A stretch of 64,000 bases of DNA, taken from positions 1-64,000 of the forward strand of contig JAOQAK010000016.1 of assembly GCA_025963635.1 (NCBI GenBank). Reading direction: 5' to 3'. How positions within the stretch are numbered: position 1 is the stretch's first letter; each line of letters starts with the position of its first letter. Shown one piece after another: positions 51,298 to 62,758 of this stretch. The DNA is from Ferruginibacter sp. (GTDB taxonomy: Bacteria > Bacteroidota > Bacteroidia > Chitinophagales > Chitinophagaceae). The notes below the pieces were generated by a model. The model did not search any database, had not been told where the DNA came from, and saw nothing but the letters and a program-made list of their open reading frames with translations. Made by a program: the position numbers and the translations under genes.

Positions 51298-51738
51298 ATG
51301 AACTGTAAAGAAATGCCGGATACATTGGGGTTTATGATTGTTCATACAGGTAAATTACTGTTGAAAACAATCAACGGTACATTTTCGGCGCTAACAAAGG
51401 AGATTACTTTCGAACAGATGGGTGTACTCTATTATATTTCACGCAGCAATAATAAAGAGATGATTCAACAGGATATTGCTGAGGTGATGGATAAAACAAA
51501 GTCGGCTATTTTAAGATCGATTGATATACTGGAAGAGAAAGGATTTGTGAAACGCTTGCCAGTAGCAGGGGACAGGAGAAAAAATGTAATTGAATTAACT
51601 GAGAGCGGAAAAGCGGTAATTGAGAAAATGCACGAAAATTTTATGGAACGTGATCAGATATTAAAACAAGGAATTGATCAGAAAGACCTAGAGACCTGCA
51701 TGTTTGTTTTATCAACCATTCAGCAAAAATGCAAATAA
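51298..51738 (+). CDS. MarR-family transcriptional regulator
   Basis: A 146-residue winged-helix regulator. The body contains the typical ITFEQMGVLYYISRSNNK, the recognition region IAEVMDKTKSAILRSIDILEEKGFVKR, and the wing VAGDRRKNVIELTESGKAV. Ligand unknown; MarR proteins often sense lipids, phenolics or oxidants. An operator-like dyad overlaps its own promoter. Because it is the first gene before the serine palmitoyltransferase gene on the same strand, it is the obvious candidate regulator of the lipid locus. Confidence 0.92.
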   Translation: MNCKEMPDTLGFMIVHTGKLLLKTINGTFSALTKEITFEQMGVLYYISRSNNKEMIQQDIAEVMDKTKSAILRSIDILEEKGFVKRLPVAGDRRKNVIELTESGKAVIEKMHENFMERDQILKQGIDQKDLETCMFVLSTIQQKCK

Positions 51739-51815
51739 CCTAAGGCAAATTATTTTAAAAAATTTTAGTTTACCCAATAAATTTTATCTATTTTTCAATG
51801 GGCATATGCCTAAGG
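51739..51815 (+). promoter_or_regulatory. Spacer between marR and spt with paired CCTAAGG sites
   Basis: CCTAAGG occurs at 51739-51745 and 51809-51815. The second copy abuts the 10-base palindrome GGCATATGCC (51801-51810). The intervening DNA is AT-rich. This could be an operator and promoter for the lipid genes; no exact TAnnTTTG box is present. Confidence 0.4.
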
Positions 51816-51835
51816 AAACTCTTTAAAACAAAGCG

Positions 51836-53047
51836 ATGAGTAATAAAACACTGATTGACAAGGTAATGGCTTTTAAGACTGCCGACAAGTTGAAAGCCGC
51901 AGACATTTATCCTTTTTTCCGGCCTCTCGAGTCTGACCAGGATACAGAGGTGATTATTGATGGCAAGCGTGTTTTGATGTTTGGATCAAACAGCTACCTG
52001 GGATTGACCAATCATCCCAGTGTAAAAGAAGCAGCAAAAAGAGCCATCGATAAATATGGTAGCGGTTGTGCAGGTTCGAGATTTTTGAATGGTACGCTCG
52101 ACCTCCATCTTGAACTGGAAGAAACCCTGGCACAGTTTGTAGGTAAAGAGTCTGCCCTTGTTTTCAGCACGGGTTACCAGGTTAACCTGGGAGTAATTTC
52201 CGCTCTTGGCGGCAGGAATGATTTTTTGTTTTCAGATGAACTCAATCACGCCTGCATAATCGATGGAGCACGTTTATCCTTTTCAAAATTGTATAAATAT
52301 GGTCACGCAGACATGGCGCATCTTGAAAAATTACTTGCAAGTGTACCATTGGAAGCATTTAAAATAATAGCTACCGACGGTGTGTTCAGCATGGAAGGAG
52401 ATATCACCAAACTAAATGAAATAACGGCCCTGGCCAAAAAATACAATGCCACCGTTTTTGTGGATGATGCACATTCACTGGGTGTATTAGGCCCGCAGGG
52501 CCAAGGTACAGCAGCACATTTCAATATTACCCATAAAGTAGATTTGATCATGGGAACCTTCAGTAAATCCCTTGCATCTATCGGAGGTTTTATTGCAGCA
52601 GATAAATGTGTGATTGAATATCTAAAACATCATGCCCGCTCGCTGATCTTCAGCGCCAGCATTTCACCGGCTGCTACTGCTTCTGCCCTTGCAGCACTCA
52701 ATGTGCTAAAAGAAGAGCCACAAAGGATCGAAAAACTTTGGAACAATACGCATTATGCGCTGGAATCCTTTACCAAGACTGGCTTCGATATTGGAATGAC
52801 CGAATCTCCCATCATCCCCATTTTTGTAAGAGATAACGAAAAGACATTCCTGATGGCCAAGATGTTGATGGATGAAGGCATTTTTGTTAACCCGGTAGTA
52901 TCACCTGCCGTAAACAGCGATTCTTCGATGATCCGTTTCTCTTTAATGGCTACCCATTCCTTCAAACAAATTGATTACGCGATAGAGAAAATTAAGAAAG
53001 TTTCTTTCAAGTTAAAAGTGCCACAATTAAATAAGGAAAGAGCATGA
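51836..53047 (+). CDS. spt: Serine palmitoyltransferase (alpha-oxoamine synthase family)
   Basis: PLP enzyme that condenses L-serine with a fatty acyl-CoA or acyl-ACP to 3-ketosphinganine, the first step of sphingolipid synthesis. The 403 residues show [54 protein letters not shown], and the PLP lysine in [14 protein letters not shown] near residue 240. The family also includes KBL and AONS. The SPT call rests on the downstream ceramide and inositol-lipid genes and on the soluble homodimeric type known in Sphingomonas and Bacteroides. The stop overlaps the next ATG by 4 bases. Confidence 0.9.
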
Positions 53048-60650: not shown

Positions 60651-61174
60651 AAAAAAATCTTTTAATTATATTTATCTTTTGTTGTATTCGTTTGACAGGC
60701 TTTGCACAGGAAAAGACATTTCCAATACCTAAGGGAAATACAAAACAATTATTTTATCTTCAGCGAACTCCGAACACCAACACCATCGTTTATGAACTAA
60801 ACTTTAAGGATGGCATTTTCGACACGGAAAATCCCGTGCAGTCATTTTGGCTCAGGTACCAGGAACATGGACAAAGAGAGGAGCTCAGTTACATACAAAG
60901 GAAATTCGCTTATGGGTTAAAAAGCAGGAAGATCTCGGAAAATAATTATGAGTTAAATTTTGTTTCGTATAAAAAATATAAGATGTATTTAAGGATGGGA
61001 AATGATAACAAATTTTATGTTTACGCAAAAATCAATCAGCATCCGGCAATACTTACCAGTATTTTTATAAAAATAAACGGGGGATCATTTTGGTCGCCCA
61101 ATATTGAATATGTTGAAATTTCCGGCGTTGAACCTAACAGCCGTTCTATTGTAAAGGAAAGAGTGAAGATTTGA
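60641..61174 (+). CDS. Small secreted protein (DUF4833-like)
   Basis: A 177-residue exported protein: signal MAIKKNLLIIFIFCCIRLTGFAQ, then a beta-rich domain with FYLQRTPNTNTIVYELNF, VQSFWLRYQEHGQREELSYI and FSP-type strands ending VEISGVEPNSRSIVKERV. The pattern resembles DUF4833. Function is unknown. The start lies inside the end of the CDP-alcohol transferase gene, so it belongs to the operon and may be a periplasmic partner for inositol-lipid handling. Confidence 0.75.
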   Translation: MAIKKNLLIIFIFCCIRLTGFAQEKTFPIPKGNTKQLFYLQRTPNTNTIVYELNFKDGIFDTENPVQSFWLRYQEHGQREELSYIQRKFAYGLKSRKISENNYELNFVSYKKYKMYLRMGNDNKFYVYAKINQHPAILTSIFIKINGGSFWSPNIEYVEISGVEPNSRSIVKERVKI

Positions 61175-61199
61175 TGAATTTGAACAACAATTATGTAAG

Positions 61200-61829
61200 A
61201 TGAAAAGAAATTATGTATCCAATACGGAGGAATCAATAAGAATGTTCAGGAGCAATCTTTTTGACAATCTATCCAAAGTTCACTTTACTGTGCCCCTGTA
61301 TATTTATATTCCGGCCATTGTATTCTTTTCGTACAAAGCATTTACTTACCATATCGGCATCCCGGCTTTTGCACTCTATTTTTTGGGCGGCCTTGTTGTG
61401 TGGACCATTACAGAATATATTTTACACCGCTTCGTTTTTCATTACCAGCCCACTTCTGAATTCGGTAAAAAACTTCACTTTATTTTTCATGGAGTGCACC
61501 ACGATTATCCCCGTGACAAAATGCGCCTGGTGATGCCACCGTCCGCCAGTATTCCATTGGCTATGTTATTCTATTTTTTATTTTCCCTGGTGCTGGATCA
61601 GCAGTTCCTGTTCGCATTTTTCCCTGGTTTTTTATTAGGCTACCTTATATACGATATGCTGCATTATGCCATGCACCATCATAATTTCAAGAACGGCATT
61701 TTAAAAAGGATCAAGCAACATCATATGCTGCATCACTACCAGGATCCCACAAAAGGATATGGAGTAAGCTCATCATTATGGGATATCATTTTGAAGTCTG
61801 ATTTTACCAGCCAATCCAACAAAAGTTGA
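61200..61829 (+). CDS. Fatty-acid hydroxylase superfamily, FA2H/Scs7-like (candidate ceramide 2-hydroxylase)
   Basis: A 209-residue di-iron membrane hydroxylase. All histidine clusters are present: HRFVFHYQP, HFIFHGVHHDYPRDKMRLVMPP, HYAMHHHNF and HHMLHHYQDPTKGYGVSS. The GVHHDYPxDxxRLVMPP block is characteristic of FA2H/Scs7, which puts a 2-hydroxyl on the N-acyl chain of ceramide. The cytochrome b5 domain of the eukaryotic enzyme is absent. Its ending TGA overlaps the next ATG by one base. The context with SPT supports a sphingolipid role. Confidence 0.88.
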   Translation: MKRNYVSNTEESIRMFRSNLFDNLSKVHFTVPLYIYIPAIVFFSYKAFTYHIGIPAFALYFLGGLVVWTITEYILHRFVFHYQPTSEFGKKLHFIFHGVHHDYPRDKMRLVMPPSASIPLAMLFYFLFSLVLDQQFLFAFFPGFLLGYLIYDMLHYAMHHHNFKNGILKRIKQHHMLHHYQDPTKGYGVSSSLWDIILKSDFTSQSNKS

Positions 61830-62758
61830 TGAACAAAGAAAAAGCTGGTTTATTTTCCACTCAAAGTATTTTAATTGCGCTTGTTGTTTCAATTATTTAT
61901 CTCGTTATCTCCTTCTTTTTGATCGGGTTTAAAACTGATCAACTGGTGCTTGCCAGCATCTTTAACTTCGCCTTTTTTTTATCTCCTGTAGCGAGAAAAT
62001 TCATCATAGGTTTTTCCATATTTATCGTTTACTGGATATTGTTTGATTATATGAAAGCATTCCCAAATTATGCTTTCAACACAGTACGTATCCAGGAACT
62101 CTATGATGCAGAAAAAGCATTGTTTGGTTTCTCTTTCCATGGCAGCAGGATAACCCCTAACGAATTTTGGCTGCAGAACGGTACTACCTGGCTGGATATT
62201 ATTTCAGGAATTTTCTACCTATGCTGGATACCGGTACCACTTGTATTTGCAGCCTATCTCTTCTTTAAAAACAAAGACCTGTTTCTGCAATTCTCTTTAA
62301 CATTCGTTTTAGTAAACATGATTGGGTTTATAATTTACTATGTATACCCAGCTGCTCCGCCCTGGTACTACCAGGCAAACGGCGCCCATTTTATACCCGG
62401 CACCCTCGGCAATACGGCGGGATTACACAAGTTTGATGATTACTTTAACATCATGATTTTTCATGGTCTTTATGCAAAGAGTTCCAACGTATTTGCCGCG
62501 ATGCCTTCATTGCATTCTTCTTACCCGCTGATCGTTGTTTATTTTGGTATTAAACAAAAACTCGGCTGGGTAAATATCCTGTTTGGAATAATTGTACTGG
62601 GCATTTGGTTTGCGGCGGTATATACAAGTCATCATTACATACTGGACGTATTGGCAGGAATCGCCTGCGCCATTGCAGGCATGGTGTTTTTCCAGAAAGT
62701 ACTGCTCCACAGTAAGCATTTCAATAAATTTTTGAGTAGTTACAAGGCCAGAATTTAA
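61829..62758 (+). CDS. PAP2_3/AUR1-like membrane protein, candidate inositol phosphorylceramide synthase
   Basis: A 309-residue polytopic protein with about six helices. The PAP2 motifs are AAMPSLHSSYP near residue 225 and TSHHYILDVLAG near residue 270. Together with YVYPAAPPWY these resemble AUR1-type inositol phosphorylceramide synthases. Such enzymes move phosphoinositol from phosphatidylinositol to ceramide, releasing diacylglycerol. A plain lipid phosphatase is the alternative. ATG 61829 overlaps the hydroxylase TGA (TGATG). It is the last gene of the cluster. Confidence 0.88.
   Translation: MNKEKAGLFSTQSILIALVVSIIYLVISFFLIGFKTDQLVLASIFNFAFFLSPVARKFIIGFSIFIVYWILFDYMKAFPNYAFNTVRIQELYDAEKALFGFSFHGSRITPNEFWLQNGTTWLDIISGIFYLCWIPVPLVFAAYLFFKNKDLFLQFSLTFVLVNMIGFIIYYVYPAAPPWYYQANGAHFIPGTLGNTAGLHKFDDYFNIMIFHGLYAKSSNVFAAMPSLHSSYPLIVVYFGIKQKLGWVNILFGIIVLGIWFAAVYTSHHYILDVLAGIACAIAGMVFFQKVLLHSKHFNKFLSSYKARI

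Follow-up and report, generated by a model that had tools for sequence, protein, structure and literature searches.

Twelve plus-strand genes in a 64,000-nucleotide stretch of Ferruginibacter sp. DNA (contig JAOQAK010000016.1, positions 1 to 64,000, hereafter the window) form a conserved operon, a variant of the known inositol-lipid cluster, which probably serves as a MarR-regulated unit for the de novo synthesis of 2-hydroxylated inositol phosphorylceramide (IPC) and may also provide for passage of the lipid to the outer membrane. The operon joins a ceramide half, consisting of serine palmitoyltransferase (SPT), a candidate ceramide synthase (CerS) and a candidate 3-ketosphinganine or ceramide reductase (KSR), to an inositol half, consisting of myo-inositol-phosphate synthase (MIPS), a PgpA-family phosphatase, a GtrA-family protein, phosphatidylinositol-phosphate (PIP) synthase (PIPS) and an AUR1-like PAP2 protein, together with a fatty-acid hydroxylase (FAH) and proteins of the DUF5686 and DUF4833 families (Table 1). 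IPC synthesis by these genes is well supported. The strongest new points are the link between FAH and SPT, the fusion of PIPS with DUF4833, the predicted Omp85-like shape of DUF5686, and a natural swap of headgroup genes.

The operon covers positions 51298-62758, with outer ends exact in the list of open reading frames, and the likely starts of MIPS (55187) and DUF5686 (57357) lie slightly off those of the longest frames. Pfam and NCBIfam scans of the window proteins at curated cut-offs agreed gene by gene with the families given in a preliminary description of this DNA, which had also reported both halves in a single run with mostly overlapping or very short junctions. From 5' to 3' the junctions measure 97, -4, -4, 38, -4, 10, -11, 18, -10, 25 and -4 bp, and the 97 bp gap after marR is the sole one outside the range of -11 to +38 bp. 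Conservation of gene order, proposed there as a check, was also observed: the order is widely kept among relatives and recurs across families, which rules out chance adjacency or a gene-call artefact.

Conservation was assessed on 80 loci from named genomes, the best among at least 577 relatives of the PAP2 alignment. Counts refer to the 70 loci with resolved ends, the other 10 being truncated and left out, and the locus sets overlap in that L034/L085, L037/L122, L150/L079 and L154/L082 share sequence. PIPS was present in all 70 loci, DUF5686 in 68, MIPS in 64, PgpA in 55, GtrA in 54, FAH in 53, SPT in 52, CerS in 51 and KSR in 47. DUF4833 was found in 54 (32 separate, 22 fused to PIPS), and 26 loci had it together with all ten other functions. 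The ceramide half is carried by Chitinophagaceae, Sphingobacteriaceae (Pedobacter, Mucilaginibacter) and several Cytophagales, the last including Ohtaekwangia, Chryseosolibacter, and metagenome-assembled genomes (MAGs) of Cyclobacteriaceae and Flammeovirgaceae. Pedobacter suwonensis DSM 18130 (L089), Ohtaekwangia koreensis DSM 25262 (L130) and Foetidibacter luteolus YG09 (L060) are carriers available in culture, and at L106 (Sediminibacterium goheungense DSM 28323) the cluster has neither SPT nor FAH. Locus L051, from another family of the same order, has these eleven genes in circularly permuted order; the placement of L050, L051 and L053 in the PIPS tree is unsure because of long branches. 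At wider sampling, where all counts include the window's own genome, the cluster is a minority trait. Of 148 order-level genomes, 24 had a strong PAP2 match and 26 a match at E ≤ 0.001; among 195 genomes of the family, 28 had cluster-type FAH (E ≤ 1e-70), and PIPS occurred in 20 of 296 class-level genomes. Fisher tests on such loci and genomes overstate significance, as the rows are related.

In the ceramide half, SPT passed the NF047600 cut-off (668.4 vs 640), and had 8guh as its best PDB match (E 9.8e-160). The genome has no other close SPT, its three further matches sharing 28-38% identity. The acyltransferase shares 90% identity with a protein from Ferruginibacter, in keeping with a reading of the window as Ferruginibacter-like Chitinophagaceae DNA. 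The candidate role of the acyltransferase as CerS is taken from context, because SPT-CerS-KSR triads also occur away from the inositol cluster in four genomes (G127, G098, G122 and G040; loci L137-L140). The reductase matched epimerases and an oxidoreductase best in the PDB, at E 1.2e-13 and weaker. DAGK/YegS-type lipid kinase genes were seen next to FAH in G053 (L173:9864-10802) and next to the SPT-CerS-KSR triad in G115 (L141:7718-8617); these neighbours are possible ceramide or sphingoid kinases.

The inositol half contains the complete BT_1522-1526-type set, namely MIPS, PIPS, PgpA, GtrA and PAP2. PIPS passed the NF052561 PIPSynBT1523 cut-off (398.9 vs 350), had 6h53 as its best PDB match (E 4.9e-21) and carries the DX2DGX2AR...GX3DX3D motif as DMLDGQVAR...GALFDSVLD. 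AUR1 chains (9vj3) were the only solved relatives of the PAP2 protein at E ≤ 1, with a best E of 1e-13. Its residues H230, H270 and D274, which we take to be the PAP2 His-His-Asp catalytic triad, were invariant in 21 sequences, and its closest relative among the named genomes listed is from a Ferruginibacter MAG (75% identity). The best PDB match of MIPS was 7nwr (E 3.9e-170), a code that occurs in a paper on the B. thetaiotaomicron enzyme BT_1526. According to the available text of PMC9246714, BT_1522, BT_1523, BT_1525 and BT_1526 are needed for phosphatidylinositol (PI)-dihydroceramide in B. thetaiotaomicron, PIP accumulates when BT_1525 is lost, and complementation succeeded for three of the four genes, BT_1526 being the exception. 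By analogy, the PgpA-type protein of the window is a candidate PIP phosphatase.

Variation within this half was also observed. MIPS is absent between the reductase and PgpA at L056, L057, L061, L068, L119 and L104. In the Mucilaginibacter loci L070, L087, L079 and L116, the place of PgpA is taken by a stretch that has no long open frame and is not masked sequence. Mucilaginibacter loci (L070:11110-11913, L087:11065-11886, L079:11095-11904 and others) also encode a conserved secreted protein directly downstream of PAP2, of about 255-280 residues (longer in L067/L105) and tetratricopeptide-like by eye.

The hydroxylase is probably responsible for a 2-hydroxyl on the ceramide acyl chain. Two Scs7 sequences (4zr1) were its only solved relatives at E ≤ 1 (best E 1.6e-29); 12 histidines align between Scs7 and the hydroxylase, which also share an RLVMPP stretch, and among 29 cluster copies 11 of these histidines are invariant and the 12th is at least 90% conserved. 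The 209-residue FAH has PF04116 only in the Pfam scan and no cytochrome b5 domain, so that it has the catalytic core in common with Scs7/FA2H but not their eukaryotic N-terminal cytochrome b5 domain, and it would work like FA2H without being of the eukaryotic form. The 2-hydroxylated IPC named in the preliminary description is thus still judged the most likely product, given that Scs7 and AUR1 are the best solved relatives. Such hydroxylation uses O2, and an O2-dependent enzyme would fit the absence of FAH from the described cluster of an anaerobic gut species. Myxobacteria already have functional FA2H-like 2-hydroxylases of fatty acids (PMC10002949, in its available text), so that FA2H in a bacterium is no novelty.

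The hydroxylase tracks SPT more than the PAP2 synthase. Both FAH and SPT were present in 52 of the 70 loci, SPT only in none, FAH only in one and neither in 17; the corresponding numbers in 22 further loci, two of which repeat loci of the first set, were 6, 2, 0 and 14. FAH at E ≤ 1e-70 was found in 12 of the 148 order-level genomes, 10 with SPT and 8 with PAP2. A tie of FAH to PAP2 alone was ruled out, as FAH lies beside SPT away from PAP2 in G136 and occurs in G137 without a PAP2 match.

These genomes provide natural dissections of the operon. In G136 the cluster is split, with DUF5686-DUF4833-FAH-SPT-CerS-KSR on one contig (L136) and PIPS-PAP2-MIPS-PgpA-GtrA on a second (L053). G137 and G306, which belong to one genus, keep SPT-CerS-KSR-MIPS-DUF5686-DUF4833-FAH. 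No PAP2 match was found in either by the query that matched 26 of the 148 order-level genomes, and no PIPS match was found in the G137 genome or in the 20-kb stretch of G306, the only part looked at. On the opposite strand and convergent, both have genes for GtrA, HAD, a CDP-alcohol transferase, a 304-residue protein without a Pfam match and a nucleoside triphosphate (NTP) transferase (L147:3904-7821 in G137; L165 in G306). This headgroup block directly adjoins FAH in G306 and lies about 4 kb off in G137, with three other genes between. Its CDP-alcohol transferase was found in 2 of the 195 family genomes, both of this genus, and the swap is therefore counted as one event.

Several points weigh against 2-hydroxylated IPC as the product. 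The proposal is drawn from gene content, and the locus sample represents near kin because only the best relatives were taken. Label changes on the tree were few (six for SPT, five for FAH) and gave two independent well-supported pairs, too few for a test. Clusters lacking MIPS, PgpA or GtrA exist. The weakest assignment in the operon is the acyltransferase, only weakly GNAT (PF00583, 21.2 vs a cut-off of 20.7) and without an NCBIfam match; no named ceramide synthase occurred among the 120 listed of its 4606 relatives. The Bacteroides genetics are also not uniform in the available texts: a BT1525 deletion was not obtainable in PMC8791184 and was made in PMC9246714, and without BT_1524 (GtrA) total membranes, though not vesicles, had less IPC and more PI in PMC8791184, whereas no phenotype on thin-layer chromatography was seen in PMC9246714. 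The former GtrA result would follow if a PI flippase supplied an AUR1-like enzyme that faces the periplasm.

The PAP2 protein scored below the cut-off of NF052609, the phosphoinositol dihydroceramide synthase family (317.5 vs 480), and for this reason we term it AUR1-like and do not file it there. It might instead be a lipid phosphatase or the synthase of another phospho-sphingolipid, since PAP2 folds are versatile and a close SPT is missing from 7 of the 24 order-level genomes with PAP2. However, the best solved relative is AUR1, the three presumed catalytic residues are invariant, and PIPS accompanies PAP2 in 22 of those 24 genomes, which makes a function other than IPC synthesis very improbable.

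Further points concern the substrate of the hydroxylase. Cluster-type FAH lacks a close SPT in 2 of the 12 order-level genomes that have it (G037 and G085), and 14 of the 24 SPT genomes have no cluster-type FAH; FAH is thus optional, and it may act on further substrates. The window's own genome has a second FAH, 39% identical (L144:8992-9723, contig C28), with no other cluster gene in the 10.5-kb stretch around it; such paralogues are common in the order, where 77 of the 148 genomes have an FAH relative at E ≤ 1e-10. PF04116 is also a broad superfamily that includes the Sur2/SBH type. The operon could accordingly make IPC while FAH acts elsewhere, on C4 of the sphingoid base or on another lipid, and any acyl hydroxyl would then come from 3-hydroxy fatty acids by way of the acyltransferase, in line with P. 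copri dihydroceramides that occur with beta-hydroxyls (PMC10865984, available text). However, the match to Scs7, a ceramide very long chain fatty acid hydroxylase, with its shared histidines and RLVMPP stretch (Sur2 was not among the sequences compared), and the functional myxobacterial enzymes speak for the acyl 2-position, and we regard action elsewhere as rather unlikely.

Under the preferred reading of 2-hydroxylated IPC synthesis, the genes, their families, active-site residues and linkage lead us to infer the following reactions, hydroxyl position, flipping and export. In the cytoplasm, SPT followed by the GNAT acyltransferase and the SDR reductase would yield dihydroceramide, to which the Scs7-like enzyme would add a 2-hydroxyl on the acyl chain with O2. 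The active sites of FA2H-type enzymes face the cytoplasm, and hydroxylation should therefore precede flipping. In parallel, MIPS would supply inositol phosphate, which PIP synthase would transfer to CDP-diacylglycerol, and the PgpA-type phosphatase would convert PIP to PI. GtrA may then help PI cross the inner membrane to its outer leaflet; there, phosphoinositol would be passed to ceramide by the AUR1-like protein. Finally, the periplasmic DUF4833 and the DUF5686 barrel might handle or export the product.

DUF5686 is predicted to form an outer-membrane barrel of the BamA/TamA/Sam50 (Omp85) shape, from which it differs by its N-terminal CarboxypepD domain. The structure search took in residues 456-846 or so and hardly covered the middle domain of the model, and the Pfam scan gave no POTRA domain. 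A profile of 33 DUF5686 copies matched no Omp85 chain in the PDB at E ≤ 1, only N-terminal SusC/TonB-receptor/carboxypeptidase-D chains at profile positions 8-114. Since no sequence match to solved Omp85 chains was obtained, we describe the protein as Omp85-like in predicted fold and claim no membership.

The DUF4833 gene is the only copy found in the genome. In 30 loci (e.g., L033, L080, L129 and L148), PIPS continues at its C-terminus into DUF4833 through a hydrophobic linker (best 19-residue Kyte-Doolittle mean 1.43 to 2.52), and fused and separate forms interchange with at least five state changes on the best PIPS tree. If the PIP synthase crosses the membrane with six helices and has both its termini inside, the DUF4833 domain would be periplasmic in the fused and the separate form alike. 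DUF4833 was found in 16 of the 148 order-level genomes, 15 with SPT, 13 with PAP2 and 13 with PIPS, and it is kept without an adjoining PIPS in G137, G136 and G115, which argues that it does not serve PIP synthase alone. It is not a Chitinophagaceae speciality, being fused to PIPS elsewhere. A fold search gave no noteworthy match to a solved fold, which does not imply a new fold, and no paper on DUF5686 or DUF4833 was found in the literature searched, most subscription journals being outside its scope. Sediminibacterium-type loci (L064, L065, L074, L075 and L078) have a second, distant DUF4833-like gene about 2.6-3.2 kb upstream of MIPS, and another DUF4833 gene (G077:C1:567872-568285) lies in a genome without close SPT, PAP2 or PIPS.

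One possibility is that DUF5686 and DUF4833 are part of a dedicated inner-to-outer membrane sphingolipid route, with GtrA as flippase, DUF4833 as a handler held at PIPS, and the DUF5686 barrel inserting or passing IPC; this proposal is tentative and somewhat doubtful. A more plausible alternative, to which we still grant less than an even chance, is that both are bystanders or have a general function in the envelope, in which case the operon would serve synthesis only and general pathways would bring the lipid to the outer membrane. Consistent with the latter, the genome has four DUF5686 copies, one of which (L175:8819-11359, contig C98) shares 64% identity with the cluster copy and, in a quick tree, falls among the copies from clusters. 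The SPT-CerS-KSR triads L137-L140 adjoin neither gene, DUF5686 is absent from clusters L037, L039, L122 and L126, and DUF4833 is absent from 16 of the 70 clusters when separate and fused forms are both counted. However, DUF5686 accompanies 68 of the 70 clusters and may have a Bacteroides counterpart, and DUF4833 is otherwise rare, occurs nearly always with SPT and fuses to PIP synthase. In the available text of PMC11087976 (2024, Caulobacter), the flippases and transporters for bacterial sphingolipids were described as not yet identified by the authors.

Table 1 Genes and candidate regulatory elements of the operon in the window
Feature	Position	Strand	Evidence
-7-type promoter box TAGCTTTG	51262..51269	+	TAnnTTTG match
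Candidate MarR operator, imperfect palindrome CAACAGTT-N8-AACTATTG	51270..51293	.	Arm pairing
marR-family regulator	51298..51738	+	PF12802/PF01047
Serine palmitoyltransferase (SPT)	51836..53047	+	NF047600
GNAT-superfamily acyltransferase, candidate ceramide synthase (CerS)	53044..54165	+	PF00583
SDR/epimerase-fold reductase, candidate 3-ketosphinganine or ceramide reductase (KSR)	54162..55148	+	PF01370, triad context
myo-Inositol-phosphate synthase (MIPS)	55187..56512	+	PF07994/PF01658
PgpA-family phosphatase, candidate PIP phosphatase (BT_1525 type)	56509..56961	+	PF04608
GtrA-family membrane protein (BT_1524 type), candidate PI flippase	56972..57367	+	PF04138
CarboxypepD_reg + DUF5686 protein, predicted outer-membrane beta barrel	57357..59900	+	Domain scan, structure model
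Phosphatidylinositol-phosphate synthase (PIPS, BT_1523 type)	59919..60650	+	NF052561
DUF4833 protein, N-terminal signal-like helix, predicted periplasmic	60641..61174	+	PF16117
FA2H/Scs7-like fatty-acid (ceramide) hydroxylase without cytochrome b5 domain (FAH)	61200..61829	+	PF04116
AUR1-like PAP2_3 protein, candidate IPC synthase	61826..62758	+	PF14378

Relatives of marR with 69-81% identity were found upstream of SPT in four of six stretches searched (G119, G057, L061 and L068) and not in those of G083 and G135; at L119, L104 and L129 a TetR-type gene, identified by eye, takes its place. A match to TAnnTTTG, presumably the Bacteroidota -7-type promoter pattern, lies at -36 from the marR start in four of five genomes compared (the window and four marR relatives), the exception being L068. 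In all five a 24-bp imperfect palindrome precedes marR, and in four it directly follows the box. In this small sample, 6 to 8 of the 8 arm positions pair in the five genomes, and the 24-bp element is a candidate MarR operator. A 7-6-7 palindrome at 51242-51261 was rejected as an operator; it is absent in the four relatives, and such arms arise in about 10% of shuffles. Both flanks of the operon are on the opposite strand, with lpxB and a SelR-domain (MsrB-type) gene upstream (48975-50971, minus, divergent from the operon) and a glutamine synthetase C-terminal domain downstream.

Compared with known systems, the operon is closest to the Bacteroides BT_1522-1526 cluster, with which it shares MIPS, the PgpA-type PIP phosphatase, GtrA, PIP synthase and the AUR1-like PAP2 protein. 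The likeness to that cluster and the separate location of its SPT had been pointed out in the preliminary description, and both agree with the available text of PMC9246714, where the SPT is BT_0870. GtrA and a carboxypeptidase-regulatory-like neighbour do not count as additions, since both have already been reported at the Bacteroides cluster; the neighbour there, BT_1527, may be the counterpart of DUF5686, a comparison made by description only. What distinguishes the window is that the ceramide triad, the hydroxylase, DUF4833 and the MarR gene lie in the same run. The terms DUF4833 and hydroxylase were not found in the main text of PMC9246714, and the literature search, judged mostly from listings, found no paper on a joined ceramide and inositol operon. 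Such an operon makes the 2-hydroxyl enzyme, the role of GtrA and the passage of sphingolipids to the outer membrane accessible to single deletions.

In Sphingobacterium spiritivorum, some ceramide phosphoinositol carries 2-hydroxy acyl chains. The occurrence of ceramide phosphoinositol in this species is among the reports cited in PMC9246714. The available text of the same paper proposes an alternative headgroup route in B. vulgatus and Prevotella (NTP transferase, CDP-alcohol transferase and HAD, the enzymes being unconfirmed) with the same predicted product. The window has the PIP route (PIPS, PgpA and PAP2), unlike this alternative cluster, whereas genes of the alternative kinds lie near the ceramide-MIPS-DUF5686-DUF4833-FAH block of G137 and G306. 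The equivalence is by domain types only, and the swapped headgroup genes offer natural support for the alternative inositol route.

The Caulobacter Spt-bCerS-CerR pathway (PMC11087976) resembles the ceramide half in its SPT, acyltransferase and SDR-type reductase, which stand side by side in the window; the likeness of CerS and KSR to bCerS and CerR is by description and domain type, CCNA_01212 and CCNA_01222 not being among the sequences compared. According to the available text of that paper, CerR of Caulobacter is periplasmic, whereas the window reductase starts at its Rossmann motif without a signal peptide (by eye). PMC11334938, citing earlier work, states that sphingolipid-producing Bacteroidota do not encode Spt, bCerS and CerR near one another. 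In contrast, many environmental Bacteroidota have the likely equivalents of these genes in one operon with the inositol half.

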